Notes under the pieces: model-generated
Seen by the model: only the letters and a program-made list of their open reading frames with translations
Database searches by the model: none
Told to the model about the DNA's origin: nothing
Shown: positions 1,108-31,408 of the stretch, in pieces
How the letters are laid out: each line of letters begins with the position of its first letter
How positions within the stretch are numbered: position 1 is the stretch's first letter
Virus record (IMG/VR): IMGVR_UViG_3300025127_000142
Span: 1-31,408 of that record
DNA from: a virus
DNA: 31,408 bases
Reading direction: 5' to 3' (one strand)
Program-made: the position numbers and the translations under genes

Positions 1108-1538
1108 TGGCTATTACGACAGCTATGTGTACGACTTTTAAAAAAGAACTTTTAGAAGCTGTACATAATTTTAAAAACTCTGGTGGCAGCACCTTCAATC
1201 TTGCTTTGTATACAAGTTCTGCTTCTTTAGGGGCAAGTACCACTGCATACACAACGTCTAATGAAGTATCTGGTACAGGGTATACAGCTAAAGGAGCATC
1301 GTTAACTCGCGTTGATCCAAGTAACGATGGGACTACAGCGATTACAGATTTTTCTGATTTGACGTTTTCTTCTAGTAGTCTGACTGCGAGAGGGGCATTG
1401 ATTTTTAATGACAGTGCTTCTGGTGATCCAGCAGTCTGTGCTTTAGATTTCGGCGCAGATAAAACGTCTACGTCAGGAGATTTTACGATACAGTTTCCTA
1501 CTGCCGACGCTAGTAATGCGATTATTCGTATCGCCTAA
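1107..1538 (+). CDS. Putative virion protein, beta-rich
   Basis: A 143-residue protein with a helical N-terminus (TTFKKELLEAVHNF) followed by a Ser/Thr/Gly-rich beta domain. Recognisable segments are FNLALYTSSASLGASTTAY, EVSGTGYTAKGASL and LTARGALIFND, and the end has ALDFG. This pattern recurs in tailed-phage proteins near head-tail genes, usually annotated only as a hypothetical or minor structural protein. There is no signal peptide or membrane segment. It starts on the TAATG overlap with the preceding gene and ends one base before the repeat protein at 1539. A virion role is inferred from composition and neighbours. Confidence 0.7.
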   Translation: MAITTAMCTTFKKELLEAVHNFKNSGGSTFNLALYTSSASLGASTTAYTTSNEVSGTGYTAKGASLTRVDPSNDGTTAITDFSDLTFSSSSLTARGALIFNDSASGDPAVCALDFGADKTSTSGDFTIQFPTADASNAIIRIA

Positions 1539-2108
1539 ATGTCTAACCTTACCGGCTGGGGCAGAGGTGCGTGGGGCGATGGCGGCTGGGGTCAACCTAG
1601 TCCTGTCCCAGTTACAGGTGTTTCTGGTACGGGTGCGGTTGGGACGGTCACAGTCGCAGCCAGTGCAGTTGCCGCTGTCACAGGCGTTTCTAGCACAGGG
1701 TCAATCGGGTCGGTTACGGTCGTCCAAGGGACAGGTGTTACCGCGACTCCTACAGGCGTGGCAGGCACTGGATCTATCGGAACGCTTACTGTTACCGGCG
1801 ATGCGAGTGCTTCTGTTACTGGGATTGCTGGGACTGGAGCGGTTGGTTCAGTTACGGTCGTTGCAGCAGCGACTACTTCTGTCACTGGAGTACAAGGTAG
1901 CGGAAGTGTCGGAGACGTTTCAGTTACAGGAGCGGCTGTCGTTATACCGACAGGTGTTAGCGCAACTGGGGCTATCACTCCTGTCAACGTGTGGGGACTG
2001 GTGGACGATAGTCAAACGCCTAGTTGGGCAGCTGTATCGGATAGTCAAAGTATTACTTGGTCGACTGTGTCAGACAGTCAAACCCCAGATTGGGAAGAGG
2101 TAGCTTAA
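1539..2108 (+). CDS. Repeat protein with GVSGTGSVG-type and DSQ-W repeats, putative virion protein
   Basis: A 189-residue low-complexity protein in three parts. The N-terminus (about residues 5-18) is a Trp/Gly motif, GWGRGAWGDGGWG. Residues about 25-150 are six degenerate copies of a 22-23 residue unit with core TGV(S/A)GTG(S/A)(V/I)G(S/T)VTV and variable Ala/Val/Thr linkers, probably a stacked beta repeat. The C-terminus has three short units of the form V(S/D)DSQ(T/S)xxW, ending DWEEVA. Similar motifs appear at the C-termini of the partial gene at 3-188 and of the 9237-9572 protein, and a GAWGSGTWG variant occurs in the 7357-9237 protein. This suggests a shared surface or assembly module. 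ORFs in other frames here are produced by the GC-rich repeats. Function unknown. Confidence 0.7.
   Translation: MSNLTGWGRGAWGDGGWGQPSPVPVTGVSGTGAVGTVTVAASAVAAVTGVSSTGSIGSVTVVQGTGVTATPTGVAGTGSIGTLTVTGDASASVTGIAGTGAVGSVTVVAAATTSVTGVQGSGSVGDVSVTGAAVVIPTGVSATGAITPVNVWGLVDDSQTPSWAAVSDSQSITWSTVSDSQTPDWEEVA
1611..1989 (+). repeat. Six in-frame degenerate repeats of about 66-69 bp
   Basis: Six tandem coding repeats, each encoding a variant of TGVSGTGSVGTVTV plus a linker of 6-10 residues. The copies differ at many synonymous positions, so they look old and kept by selection on the protein rather than recently amplified. Confidence 0.7.
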
Positions 2109-26857: not shown

Positions 26858-27718
26858 ATGGCGTCTATAAGAAAAACGCTTGAAGAAAATGTTAACGATA
26901 GTAAAAACACCCGTATGGATATTACCAGCGGCAATATGTTAGGTAATTGGCGTCCAGACGAAATTACGCATATGACTCGGTACGACAAAATTTCTAGCTT
27001 GTGTATCGAAGAAGCAAAAAAGCTAGAACGACCCATAGATGTATTAGAAGCAGGGTGCGGTGAGATATGGGTTCTGCGTAACTTGTATAAAGCCTACACT
27101 GTTAAAAAGTCTGACATTATCGGATCGTATCGCGGCGTAGATATTGACCCTGCGTGTCTTAATGAAAAAGTAGGCTATAGCAGCCCTACTGGATTTGTTC
27201 AAGATTCTACATGGTTCGCTAATTTCAATGGCAAGATCGATATTCAAGATCTTACAGTAAACCCTACATTCGACTTACCCGATAACTCTATAGATTTCTT
27301 TTGGACTACAGAAGTAATCGAACATATGGGACGCGAGTTTATTGCACCATGGCTTGATGACGCTAATCGTGTATTACGTCCAGGAGGACTGATCTACGTT
27401 TCTACCCCTAACCACGACGGGTCTAACGATAAGTTACCAGAAGATCACATTTACGAGTGGGGTTTCGAAGAACTTAAAGAAGAACTCGAAGACGAAACTA
27501 GAGGCTGGAAAATACAGTCTGTAGTCGGTACTTTCTGTCAGCTACCTAAACTTAAAAAAGCGATGGCTCAAGACGAAGATGATCACGAATGGCGCTGGTG
27601 GCCTGATCAGTACGAGTTACTTGAAGAACGATACGGTAGACAGTTTTTACGAGTGATTGCTGCTACGTTCTATCCAGAAGTTTCTAATAACTGTGCGTGG
27701 ATTTTAAGAAAGATCTAA
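26858..27718 (+). CDS. Class I SAM-dependent methyltransferase
   Basis: A 286-residue Rossmann-fold methyltransferase. Motif I is VLEAGCGE at 62-69, motif II GVDIDP with Asp95, and the motif IV region SIDFFWTTEVIEHMG has Glu155-His156. VLRPGGLIYVSTPNHDG follows at about 168-184. This is the Methyltransf_11/UbiE-like type that usually acts on small molecules or, in phages, on unknown acceptors. It has none of the DPPY or PC motifs of ordinary DNA base methyltransferases. Directly followed (stop/start TAATG) by the aGPT-PPlase-family gene, it may methylate an intermediate or side chain of a modified base. That role is inferred from context. The last third is acidic and rich in Trp. Confidence 0.85.
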   Translation: MASIRKTLEENVNDSKNTRMDITSGNMLGNWRPDEITHMTRYDKISSLCIEEAKKLERPIDVLEAGCGEIWVLRNLYKAYTVKKSDIIGSYRGVDIDPACLNEKVGYSSPTGFVQDSTWFANFNGKIDIQDLTVNPTFDLPDNSIDFFWTTEVIEHMGREFIAPWLDDANRVLRPGGLIYVSTPNHDGSNDKLPEDHIYEWGFEELKEELEDETRGWKIQSVVGTFCQLPKLKKAMAQDEDDHEWRWWPDQYELLEERYGRQFLRVIAATFYPEVSNNCAWILRKI

Positions 27719-28611
27719 TGACCAATTTTATACCAGCAGAGGTAGACCGATACGTTTATTGGATCGAAGAACGTGAACGGATACGTCGAGTAAAAGAGGA
27801 AGAGAAGTTAGAGCCGCCTTGGACTCGCGACCCGATATTACAAGAGTTTAAATTCTGTCAAGTTTTCCGAGAAGACGATCGGACTACCCGCTGGTTTAGA
27901 GAACATATTCGAGAGCCGTTGCGTAACAAACCAGAAGTGCTGATGGCGACTGTTATCTTTCGGTTTTTTAATCTTATAGAAACAGGACATACGTTACTCG
28001 ACCATAACTTACATATCGACTGGGATCGCCTCAAAGCTATTGAAGAAGTAAAAAAGCAACCGAAATGGATTACGGGTGCATATATCGTCAAAACTCCTAA
28101 CCGTATGGATAAAGTAACAGGGGTAGCTGAATGTATTACGCATCTATGGGTAGAACGAGAGCGGATACTAAAAGACTTTAGCCATTTCAAATCTCTATCT
28201 GATGCATGGAACTATCTTCTTCGGTTTCCTTATATCGGCCCATTCGTTTCTTACGAACTAGTTTCTGATCTAAGACATACCTACTTGTTAGAAAACGCTG
28301 AAGATATTTGCTCGTGGGCTAATGCTGGCCCCGGAGCAATGAGAGGATTAAACAGACTGACAGGTAGACCGCTAGAGTTTTGTAGACGTAGCTGGGATTG
28401 GAATAGCGAGATGCAAGCACTTTATAAATGGTGCACTGAGAATATTGATTTGAGCCAGTTTGATAAACCTTTCGAGATGCGCGAGATCGAAGGCGGTTTA
28501 TGCGAGTTCGATAAATACTCTCGGATACTACATGGTCAAGGACGCACCCGAAGCGTTTATGACTACTCACAAAAAGATCGCCCGTTGATCGAATACTACG
28601 GGAAACAATAA
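27718..28611 (+). CDS. 5-hmdU DNA kinase helical domain / aGPT-PPlase family base-hypermodification protein
   Basis: A 297-residue protein. I choose ATG 27718, overlapping the methyltransferase stop, over an in-frame GTG at 27697. Residues 35-59 have WTRDPILQEFKFCQVFRE followed by DDRTTRW. Residues 200-211 have WANAGPGAMRGL. Both match, from memory, the helical family called HMUDK_hel or alpha-glutamyl/putrescinyl thymine pyrophosphorylase. Related proteins act on 5-hydroxymethyl-uracil in phage DNA: a kinase or pyrophosphorylase activates the hydroxymethyl group, which is then replaced by an amine or other group. No P-loop kinase domain is attached here, so activation would need a separate enzyme or a different chemistry. 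The TS-family enzyme downstream would supply the hydroxymethylated nucleotide. Confidence 0.75.
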   Translation: MTNFIPAEVDRYVYWIEERERIRRVKEEEKLEPPWTRDPILQEFKFCQVFREDDRTTRWFREHIREPLRNKPEVLMATVIFRFFNLIETGHTLLDHNLHIDWDRLKAIEEVKKQPKWITGAYIVKTPNRMDKVTGVAECITHLWVERERILKDFSHFKSLSDAWNYLLRFPYIGPFVSYELVSDLRHTYLLENAEDICSWANAGPGAMRGLNRLTGRPLEFCRRSWDWNSEMQALYKWCTENIDLSQFDKPFEMREIEGGLCEFDKYSRILHGQGRTRSVYDYSQKDRPLIEYYGKQ

Positions 28612-28631
28612 TACAGCTGTAGGAGGCGTAA

Positions 28632-28868
28632 ATGGGAAAGCTAAAAGATTTGATTATAGATCTGGAACATAAAGATACTGAGTTCGTAATGGAGCATTAC
28701 GGATTGTTTTTAGAAAAAGCGATAAAAGATAAACAGATGCCGAATAGTTGGTCGGATGCGGTAAACGCTATCCATTGGGCAGCATATTTATCAGGCACTA
28801 ATTTAGTGCGAATACAGATCGAACATATTCTTAGACAACAAACGGAGAGTCTTTATGAAGGTGATTAG
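28632..28868 (+). CDS. Small unknown protein in the base-modification block
   Basis: A 78-residue helical protein with a strong ribosome site (GTAGGAGG at 28619-28626). It reads DLIIDLEHKDTEFVMEHYG, then DKQMPNSWSDAVNAIHWAAY, with no catalytic motif I can name. It overlaps the thymidylate-synthase-family gene by 14 bases and lies between the two strongest modification genes. It could be a partner of either, but the evidence is only position. Confidence 0.6.
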   Translation: MGKLKDLIIDLEHKDTEFVMEHYGLFLEKAIKDKQMPNSWSDAVNAIHWAAYLSGTNLVRIQIEHILRQQTESLYEGD

Positions 28869-29907
28869 CGCCGTCAATGTAAACGACGCTTTGTTACGAG
28901 GGATCGACTTGTTTAAATCCCAAGTAAATTATCGAGAACAAGAAAGTCGTAACGGCCCTACGATGGAGTGTCGTAGTCCAGTAACTACTGTTTACAACAA
29001 ACCTTGGCAGCGAGTGCTGTTTAGCCCTGAGCGAGACGCTAACCCTTTCTTTCATTTATATGAAGCGATATGGATGTTAGGTGGTTCTCGTAACCTGATG
29101 AAGTTAACACACTTTAACTCAGGTATGTCTGCATTTTCAGATGATAACGAAACTTTAAACGGCTCATACGGGTATCGCTGGAGAAAACAGTTTGATTACG
29201 ATCAGCTTTGGCATGTCGTAGATATGCTAAAAAGAGACCCTGACTCACGCCGAGTTGTTTTACAGATGTGGGATGCGGTTCACGATTTAGACAGCCCAAG
29301 CAAAGATATTCCTTGTAATACAAACATATATTTTAAGATCAGAGGCGGCGAGTTACAGATGACGGTCTGTAATAGATCGAACGATATGCTCTGGGGAGCT
29401 TACGGTGCGAACGCTGTTCATATGTCAGTGTTACAAGAATATGTAGCTGCCGCTCTCGGAATATACATAGGGCCGTATTACCAAGTCAGCGATAGCTTCC
29501 ACGTTTACCTCAATAAAGAATGGGATAAAGTCAAAAACCTAAGTGTTACGCCTTTTTTACCAGTGAGTGAATTCTATCCAGAAAAACATTACCCGCTATG
29601 TTCGAACCCTGAAACATTTTTAGAAGAGTGTGAAACTTTAATCGAAACCATCCCACCTCGTAGAGTATCTGGTAATCCAGAGCCTGTCGATGTCTGGCCG
29701 ACTATGTGGAAAGAACATGACTATCAAAATACGTTCTTTCCTGAAGTAATGATCCCGATGATTAAAGCCTACTTATGCCATAAGGAAAGAAAATATGAAG
29801 AATGCTATTCGCACTTGGCGAATATTGAGGCGGAGGATTGGCAATTCGCATGCCTCCAATGGATCAAAAGACGTGAAGCTAATTGGAGAAAGAAGAATGG
29901 GACTTGA
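28855..29907 (+). CDS. Thymidylate-synthase-family enzyme, possibly dUMP hydroxymethylase
   Basis: A 350-residue protein of the ThyA family, which transfers a one-carbon unit from methylene-tetrahydrofolate to a pyrimidine nucleotide. Recognised parts are EAIW near 69-72 (catalytic Glu), SYGYRWRKQ (about 103-111), catalytic Cys154 in DIPCN, Arg174-Ser175 and Asp177 in NRSND, Asn186 in GAYGANAVH, and His216-x-Tyr218. Cys-to-Arg spacing (20) equals that of E. coli ThyA. The usual PCH is PCN, and one residue is inserted between Asp177 and Asn186. True thymidylate synthase makes dTMP; phage relatives make hydroxymethyl-dUMP or -dCMP. Its place beside the aGPT-PPlase-family gene favours a hydroxymethylase. 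The C-terminus extends beyond that of ThyA (264). Confidence 0.85.
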   Translation: MKVISAVNVNDALLRGIDLFKSQVNYREQESRNGPTMECRSPVTTVYNKPWQRVLFSPERDANPFFHLYEAIWMLGGSRNLMKLTHFNSGMSAFSDDNETLNGSYGYRWRKQFDYDQLWHVVDMLKRDPDSRRVVLQMWDAVHDLDSPSKDIPCNTNIYFKIRGGELQMTVCNRSNDMLWGAYGANAVHMSVLQEYVAAALGIYIGPYYQVSDSFHVYLNKEWDKVKNLSVTPFLPVSEFYPEKHYPLCSNPETFLEECETLIETIPPRRVSGNPEPVDVWPTMWKEHDYQNTFFPEVMIPMIKAYLCHKERKYEECYSHLANIEAEDWQFACLQWIKRREANWRKKNGT

Positions 29908-30229
29908 TCCTAAATGGACAGAGATGAAAGATTTAGCTCAACAAGATATTGTAAGTCTGATCGAATCAGAAAAATCTTACGGCGACTCGTGGAAACGACG
30001 AGGCGGGACAGGGGCTTTTATGATGCTCGCTCGTAAATTCGATCGGATCGAACAACAAGCAGAAAACTGTAATTACGATGTATTCGTAGCAGGAGAAAGG
30101 TTCGGCGGTGACGATGGTTTACTCGACGATATCGGAGACCTTAGACGATATTTGTTTTTAGTAGAACACCATATTCGATACGGCATAGGAGATATCGACC
30201 CCGATGCAGATACCACTATTACAACCTGA
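29897..30229 (+). CDS. Nmad1-like small protein (nucleotide-modification associated)
   Basis: A 110-residue protein. I start it at ATG 29897, overlapping the previous stop, because GGAGAAAGAAG precedes it and a longer in-frame start would lie deep inside the upstream gene. It has KSYGDSWKRRGGTGAFMMLA at residues 26-45, then RKFDRIEQQAENC, and a helical end LRRYLFLVEHHIRYGIG. The YGDSW pattern recalls the Nmad1 (DUF1599-like) domain that occurs near thymidylate-synthase and base-modification genes in phages. The match is by memory and moderate. It overlaps the DNA polymerase start by 26 bases. Confidence 0.65.
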   Translation: MGLDPKWTEMKDLAQQDIVSLIESEKSYGDSWKRRGGTGAFMMLARKFDRIEQQAENCNYDVFVAGERFGGDDGLLDDIGDLRRYLFLVEHHIRYGIGDIDPDADTTITT

Positions 30230-31408
30230 GAGCGATTGGATAGCCCCGCAAGTCCTACCGAAGTTTGATCCTTACGAAACGCTTGCGGTCGATTTAGAAA
30301 CATACGACCCCAACTTAATAAATCGCGGCCCAGGATGGGCAACTGGTGACGGGTATATCGTAGGGATTGCGATATCGACAGATAAATGGTCAGGGTATTT
30401 ACCGATACGACACGAGAACGGCGGCAACTTAGAAGAAGAAATCGTACTCCGCTGGCTTAAAAGAACCTTTGAAAATCATAAAGGTACGATGGTTTTCCAT
30501 AATGCACTTTATGATGTCGGCTGGCTCAAACGCGAAGGTGTAGAACTAACTTGTCCTTTACGAGATACGATGTTCGCGGCCCCACTGTTCGATGAAAACA
30601 GATGGTCATACTCTTTAAATAATTTAGGTATGGATTTTTTAGCTGAATCGAAAGATGAAACACTCCTCGAAACAGCAGCTAAAGCATGGGGCGTAAATCC
30701 GAAAGGTGGTATGTGGGCATTGCCTGCTAAATACGTTGGGCCATACGCTGAACAAGATGCAGTGCTAACGCTCAAGCTATGGAAAATATTTAAAAAGCGG
30801 ATCGAGATCGAAGGCTTACAAACGATCTACGATTTAGAGTGTGACCTTATACCGTTGCTGATCGAGATGCGTTGGCGAGGTGTTCGGATCGATACAGATC
30901 GAGCAGAGCAAACTTCAGAACAATTATCTAAAAAAGAACAACAACTACTCGTAGAAATCAAACGTAGGTTCGGGGTCAACGTAGATATTTGGGCGAGCGC
31001 GTCGATACAAAAAGCCTTTGATAACAACAACTTATGGTATCCGCATACTGAAAAAGGCGCACCTAGTTTCCAAGGGCCATGGTTAGAATCTCACGAACAC
31101 GACTTACCGAAAATGATTGTCGAAGCTCGACGGATTAATAAAGCTCGGACGACATTTATCGAAGGCGCAATCTTAGAATATTCTCATCACGGTCGGATAC
31201 ATGCCGAAGCTCACCCGCTCAAAAATGATGGCGGGGGTACAGTAACGGGTCGATTTAGTTATTCGAATCCAAACTTACAACAAGTACCGGCTCGAGACCC
31301 AGAGATCGGTAAAATGATTCGGTCTCTATTTATCCCAGAAGAAGGTGCAACGTGGGGTGCGTTCGATTATTCGCAACAGGAACCTAGGATAACCGTACAT
31401 TACGCCTC
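30204..31408 (+). CDS. polA: Family A DNA polymerase with 3'-5' exonuclease (partial, 3' cut)
   Basis: The first 401 residues of a T7/Pol I-type replicative polymerase, cut by the window end. The proofreading exonuclease is complete: Exo I AVDLETY (Asp and Glu near residues 29-31), Exo II HNALYD near 99-104, and Exo III YAEQDAVLTL near 181-190. After a helical linker comes TGRFSYSNPNLQQVPAR (about 350-366), the conserved entry to the polymerase domain. Motif A follows as FDYSQQEPRI (about 388-397) with the catalytic Asp; the family usually has DYSQIELR, so QEP is a slight variant. Motifs B and C lie beyond the window. I see no CxxCxGxG zinc-finger insertion in the visible part. ATG 30204 is chosen because it is the first in this frame that keeps the exonuclease N-terminus. 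Confidence 0.92.
   Translation, partial: MQIPLLQPESDWIAPQVLPKFDPYETLAVDLETYDPNLINRGPGWATGDGYIVGIAISTDKWSGYLPIRHENGGNLEEEIVLRWLKRTFENHKGTMVFHNALYDVGWLKREGVELTCPLRDTMFAAPLFDENRWSYSLNNLGMDFLAESKDETLLETAAKAWGVNPKGGMWALPAKYVGPYAEQDAVLTLKLWKIFKKRIEIEGLQTIYDLECDLIPLLIEMRWRGVRIDTDRAEQTSEQLSKKEQQLLVEIKRRFGVNVDIWASASIQKAFDNNNLWYPHTEKGAPSFQGPWLESHEHDLPKMIVEARRINKARTTFIEGAILEYSHHGRIHAEAHPLKNDGGGTVTGRFSYSNPNLQQVPARDPEIGKMIRSLFIPEEGATWGAFDYSQQEPRITVHYA

Follow-up and report, generated by a model that had tools for sequence, protein, structure and literature searches.

A Kinase-Free Gene Block in a Metagenomic Phage Group Suggests a Possible O-Methylation Route from 5-Hydroxymethyldeoxyuridine

We analyzed a stretch of viral DNA of 31,408 bases, IMG/VR record IMGVR_UViG_3300025127_000142 (hereafter the window), which is a fragment that stops inside polA, the gene of a family A DNA polymerase. 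Ahead of polA on the + strand are five genes, in the order of a class I S-adenosylmethionine (SAM) methyltransferase (MT), a protein of the HMUDK_hel family (HEL), a 78-aa open reading frame (ORF), a thymidylate synthase-family enzyme (TS) and a small gene, N1. An earlier, sequence-only reading of this DNA had proposed that the block was a thymine hypermodification pathway. Our analyses supported a route derived from 5-hydroxymethyldeoxyuridine (5-hmdU) well, and we consider membership of the block in a 5-hmdU-based pathway highly probable. The series of steps that we favor, with slightly less than an even chance of being correct, is hydroxymethylation of dUMP, incorporation into DNA and O-methylation to 5-(methoxymethyl)deoxyuridine. 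Gene identities, synteny, active-site signatures and the absence of kinase and amino acid:DNA transferase (ADDT) genes were computed, and we infer that the acceptor is a hydroxyl, that the substrate is DNA and not the nucleotide, that HEL provides targeting and that protection is the benefit.

The Gene Block and Its Conservation

The five frames are co-directional and, as described in the earlier reading, overlapping or near-abutting, with the HEL start codon (ATG 27718) overlapping the MT stop codon as TAATG. The family assignments of that reading for three of the proteins were confirmed by profile matches: MT to Methyltransf_23 (1.8e-10), HEL to PF18723 (E 1.2e-43, with 149.9 bits vs a curated cut-off of 25), and TS to PF00303 (8e-23) and phrog_5131 (8e-109). 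Its observation that no P-loop kinase is fused to HEL also held. The genes are as follows:

MT, 26858..27718, + strand: 286-aa SAM methyltransferase of class I, put forward here as an O-methyltransferase of 5-hydroxymethyl-pyrimidines
HEL, 27718..28611, + strand: member of HMUDK_hel (PF18723) with about 297 aa; predicted helical fold resembling DNA glycosylases
78-aa ORF, 28632..28868, + strand: sits between HEL and TS
TS, 28855..29907, + strand: predicted TS-family dUMP hydroxymethylase, 350 aa
N1, 29897..30229, + strand: 110 aa, best start ATG 29897
polA, 30204..31408, + strand: family A DNA polymerase, truncated where the record stops (DNA_pol_A 4e-23, DNA_pol_A_exo1 1e-14)

The carriers of the block are a widespread phage group known from metagenomes. 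Among viral contigs, HEL was found with all 83 distinct MT sequences and was immediately downstream of MT in 82 of the 83 distinct loci, mostly with the two genes overlapping. Recurrence of the gene order in other phage genomes had been named in the sequence-only reading as a check on its proposal; the order MT-HEL-TS-N1-polA was intact in 79/79 distinct MT-bearing loci that reached polA, with no violations, which is more than chance would produce. N1 was located between TS and polA in every locus having both (114/114). The gene between HEL and TS was variable, being the 78-aa gene in 51 loci, a 73-aa gene (cluster c11) in 47, or absent. Profile searches identified no family match for the 78-aa protein.

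Hydroxymethylation of dUMP

The best solved match of TS was the CMP 5-hydroxymethylase MilA (5b6d, 3.7e-23), and C154 was retained in the window enzyme. Trp80 of thymidylate synthase guards against hydroxymethyl products, as known from mutants of that enzyme. The position equivalent to Trp80 of the E. coli protein was Met in 18/18 members, including those of PaMx11 and Pam3 (M91 in the window TS), and the Asn177 position was Asn in the same 18 (N186 in the window TS). Asn vs Asp at position 177 sets the choice of dUMP vs dCMP (PMC8670742). A cytosine hydroxymethylase, as could be read from the MilA match, was rejected for the window because this position holds Asn rather than Asp. Because of the Met at the Trp80 position and the retained Asn177, the window TS is most likely, as judged from its residues, a dUMP hydroxymethylase.

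Absence of the Kinase and ADDT Route

In PaMx11, the M6-like phage SN1 and Pam3 the modification genes are arranged as ADDT, tailoring genes, P-loop kinase, PF18723 protein, TS, HD protein and polA, in that order. The window has the hydroxymethylase, PF18723 protein and polymerase in the same order as the PaMx11/M6-type (Mesyanzhinovviridae) phages, its TS is 41–44% identical to theirs, and its HEL is about 40% identical to PaMx11 gp50. In contrast, the window group is without the kinase, ADDT, YfbR-like HD protein, and the PLP, radical SAM, FAD and GNAT tailoring genes, and MT occupies the slot held by the kinase in PaMx11, Pam3 and SN1. Pseudanabaena phage Pam3 also has an N1 homolog together with a PF18723 protein and TS ahead of polA, and a counterpart (gp34) of a gene upstream of the window primase; however, Pam3 has a kinase, ADDT and Nmad5, and no MT.

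A P-loop 5-hmdU kinase was identified in none of the 37 long records of the MT group with a family profile that found the controls L136, L137 and SN1 at 1e-23 to 1e-82. This profile was made from our own kinase alignment and replaced the generic AAA_33 kinase model, which had missed some controls. Similarly, ADDT was identified in 0/35 and 0/16 records, while the PaMx11 and Pam3 controls matched (3e-29 and 6e-20). MT and the kinase were never in the same locus, and a reference search showed no relatives of the DAO, GNAT and PALP tailoring enzymes within 10 kb. The conserved small genes (N1 and the 78-aa and 73-aa genes) could conceivably hold a missing role, such that the classical phosphate-then-amino-acid route is finished by an activating enzyme that escaped detection, with MT as a late N-methylating step. 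We consider this very improbable, as kinase and ADDT profiles that work in the controls match none of the 35–37 long records and the tailoring relatives are missing as well.

The Methyltransferase

The nearest folds to the predicted MT model (pLDDT 82) were RebM/AtmM/TleD/CmoM and HENMT1. The VIA-align matches also included RNA enzymes such as CmoM, METTL6 and cap methyltransferases. By its predicted model, MT belongs with those class I enzymes whose substrates are small molecules and RNA, and is not a base-methylating DNA methyltransferase. Residues 1–30 had low model confidence yet were strongly conserved, as if this part of the protein folded on a partner or on DNA.

Four residues of MT, E152, E155, H156 and H197 (E-x-x-E-H…H), were invariant in 29/29 sequences and in homologs of 24–28% identity. 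A HMMER alignment placed this stretch (EVIEH..STPN..DHxxEW, E 0.09) with that of bacterial 3jwg, which we take to be the methyltransferase domain of Hen1, its PDB name being "Methyltransferase type 12". The four Mg2+ ligands of HEN1 are E796, E799, H800 and H860, and the bound Mg2+ also contacts the RNA 2'-OH and 3'-OH (PMC10781085); one of the HEN1 metal ligands is common to UbiG/COQ3 (PMC9774615). MT has the four metal-ligand positions, the STPN..DHxxEW context and the fold (Z 15.7 to 4xcx) in common with the RNA 2'-O-methyltransferases HEN1, bacterial Hen1 and HENMT1, but it is only ~20% identical, has its own N- and C-terminal parts and is found in a phage hydroxymethylase context. These sequence features suggest that MT may work like a HEN1-type O-methyltransferase, although we do not file it as a member of that family.

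MT Homologs in Phages without HEL

Homologs of MT (24–28% identity) were identified within a phage collection in AXL3, PW916, ct3Et533 and ctUtU524. In these four phages the homolog adjoins an NTP-PPase and a hydroxymethylase, and HEL is absent. All three hydroxymethylases from these phages that were aligned had Asp, the cytosine signature, at the Asn177 position. As distant MT homologs are paired with cytosine-type hydroxymethylases, the 5-hydroxymethyl group would be the common acceptor; this pairing favors a hydroxyl acceptor, with MT apparently following the hydroxymethyl group, whether U or C carries it, and not the base. Of 37 restriction enzymes, 35 fail to cut the DNA of AXL3 and the two that do have A/T-only sites (PMC7504290), which is as expected for modified C and does not show methylation. 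The AXL3 arrangement resembles the MetaGPA clusters of the 5-hydroxymethylcytosine (5hmC) carbamoyltransferase, in which a group-transfer enzyme is beside a TS homolog, PRA-PH and dCMP deaminase, with the differences that the group is carbamoyl and not methyl, that only cytosine is involved and that there is no HEL.

The HEL-free phages also bear on whether MT might methylate hmdUMP or hmdUTP before replication, with HEL acting separately, for instance as a proofreader or in repair-like removal of unmodified or wrong bases. AXL3, PW916, ct3Et533 and ctUtU524 keep MT beside the NTP-PPase, a nucleotide kinase and the hydroxymethylase, and the invariant Asp residues within the predicted glycosylase-like HEL fold would suit such a separate role. 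In addition, the 5hmC carbamoyltransferase, a functional analog in a similar cluster, accepts both 5hmdCTP and DNA (PMC8670742). However, the adjacency of MT and HEL in almost all loci of the MT group counts against this, and no dedicated nucleotide kinase was seen adjoining the block in that group; we regard methylation of the nucleotide as unlikely.

Still less probable, in our estimation, is that the product is plain 5-hmdU, with MT modifying RNA or protein and HEL binding hmdU DNA for replication or packaging. Phages with 5-hmdU and no further modification do exist, such as SP8 (PMC7653180), and the RNA enzymes among the MT structure matches would be in keeping with this, but the MT family is independently tied to hydroxymethylases in unrelated phages and its distribution is mutually exclusive with the kinase/ADDT route.

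HEL as a Candidate Recognition Module

Approximately 47 invariant columns were common to HEL and the kinase-linked members from PaMx11, SN1 and Pam3. The predicted HEL model was all-helical (pLDDT 86), and in VIA-align it had a Z of 10–11 to Ogg2-type glycosylases, the DUF2419 queuosine salvage enzyme and PUGT, with 10.9 for MjOgg (3knt) and 10.5 for PaMx11 gp46/PUGT (8z2n; 9% identity and 4.2 A across 218 residues). These values are to be read with the knowledge that helical models reach middling Z by chance, and HEL is a tentative candidate for the HhH DNA-glycosylase superfamily. A Foldseek search with the model gave no significant match (E about 1).

The resemblance to PUGT, a 5-PmdU glycinyltransferase that acts on phosphorylated hmdU, would be consistent with HEL substituting a small nucleophile on 5-hmdU DNA and MT methylating the added group, giving a larger final base, and among the MT fold neighbors there are indeed both N- and O-methyltransferases, with a wide variety of acceptors. 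We consider this improbable, though not to the degree of the plain 5-hmdU product, as there is no kinase to supply a leaving group and no ADDT, the HEL-free MT phages are without such a step, and the MT motif favors a hydroxyl acceptor.

The HELs of the MT group formed one clade (SH-aLRT 100). A TAGT glycosyltransferase was present in 12/19 non-MT HEL records vs 0/10 MT-class records, and the HEL phages with TAGT were mostly without the kinase (L150, L146, L177, L161, L174, L187 and others). These phages are like the window in having HEL with no adjacent kinase, several of them on a UvrD/AEP-primase backbone, and differ in having the glycosyltransferase in place of MT. A sister HEL set (support 81; L160, L162 and L163) has an FkbM-type methyltransferase (PF05050) and a glycosyltransferase instead of MT. 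Because HEL occurs without a kinase in the MT clade, and mostly without one in TAGT phages, its likely role seems to be recognition and not activation, and its designation as the "activating enzyme" in the earlier reading was not established. We infer that several group-transfer enzymes depend on HEL to recognize 5-hmdU in DNA; the family may be broader than its Pfam name, "5-hmdU DNA kinase, helical domain", implies.

In L160, L162 and L163 the FkbM-type methyltransferase and glycosyltransferase adjoin HEL, N1 and TS, perhaps for a glycosylated and O-methylated hmU. In L197 and L154 there are radical SAM/SPASM proteins near HEL, and L197 has a further methyltransferase, indicative of possible further hmdU chemistries.

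N1 and Neighboring Genes

The N1 frame from 29795 is over-long, as relatives are about 107–135 aa. The Pam3 homolog (39.6% identity) is annotated "nucleotide modification". The last gene of the block had been described as Nmad1-like, but this was not upheld, as the DUF1599 profile matched none of 21 family members nor the N1 gene in 16 genomes. DUF3310 was rejected as well, with no match by profile comparison, and a structure-database search found no solved relative of N1.

Upstream of the block the window encodes a UvrD helicase, an AEP-type primase and the Pam3 gp34-like gene. The window polymerase shares ~50% identity with the enzyme of pelagiphages HTVC023P/027P, and there was no such block in the HTVC023P and 023Pt_psg01 regions examined. 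At window 1516-2108 there is a low-complexity repeat gene with long frames on both strands (1516-2103 +, 1539-2108 + and 1592-1987 -), only one of which is likely real.

Two genes that are absent from the window were found in its relatives. An AlkB-like 2OG-Fe(II) oxygenase (PF13532, 1.6e-19; cluster c17, L082:6459-7043 and 54 related loci) is encoded between the primase and UvrD genes of many relatives and could act on methylated bases. A Pyr_excise (PF03013) pyrimidine dimer DNA glycosylase-like protein (cluster c15, L113:7773-8270 and related, 77 in all) immediately precedes MT in most of the relatives. Lastly, a 5.2 kb contig from a Maricaulis metagenome-assembled genome bin (L295, NZMJ01000039.1) carries an MT that is 54% identical to the lead sequence of the family profile. 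This is a weak hint of an alphaproteobacterial host; Maricaulis itself was set aside as the host, as it rests on one short binned contig.

Proposed Pathway and Implications

In the pathway that we favor, TS would turn dUMP into 5-hydroxymethyl-dUMP, which would be phosphorylated, presumably by host kinases, and built into phage DNA, with polA expected to incorporate hmdUTP. HEL would find, and probably flip out, 5-hmdU in DNA. MT, translated together with HEL and probably metal-assisted in a HEN1-like manner, would then move the SAM methyl onto the exposed 5-CH2OH to produce 5-(methoxymethyl)deoxyuridine, in place of T either throughout the DNA or at part of its sites. Capped in this way, the base would hide the phage DNA from host restriction enzymes and would no longer be a substrate for 5-hmdU-reading enzymes.

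Several points weigh against this pathway. The MT-Hen1 alignment is weak overall (E 0.09), no Hen1 model among the NCBIfam models matched MT at E up to 1, and the E-x-x-E-H plus distal His arrangement is also found in UbiG/COQ3-type O-methyltransferases, so it is not exclusive to nucleic acid enzymes. The HEL-free MT phages indicate that HEL is dispensable for some members, and the invariance of D203 and D272/K273 leaves room for HEL itself being catalytic. The completeness of IMG/VR records is unstated and the window ends in polA; because it is a fragment, its phage could have a remote partner gene. 

The sequence-only reading had suggested that the chemistry might end in a methylated base, an outcome that we favor too given the missing kinase and the odd methyltransferase. 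What is new here beyond the earlier reading is that long records of the group lack kinase and ADDT, that MT has a HEN1-like metal site and that MT is independently paired with cytosine-type hydroxymethylases. We tentatively propose, as a possibility with rather less than an even chance, that T is replaced by 5-(methoxymethyl)uracil via a HEN1-like DNA/nucleotide O-methyltransferase, that the same family would produce 5-(methoxymethyl)cytosine in AXL3-like phages, and that PF18723 serves generally to recognize 5-hmdU, in combination with a kinase, a glycosyltransferase or a methyltransferase. A paper of December 2025 names glycosylation, amination and carbamoylation as the ways in which the 5-hydroxymethyl handle is transformed, with O-methylation not among them (PMC12783734). 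Our literature search for O-methylated phage bases returned one paper, on polymorphism analysis, with neither title nor abstract naming methoxymethyl uracil in phage DNA. AXL3, which carries an MT homolog, is cultivable. If the proposal is correct, no kinase is needed for the "kinase helical domain" to work, and these phages would add to the natural DNA bases and open a branch of 5-hydroxymethyl-based modification that depends on SAM.

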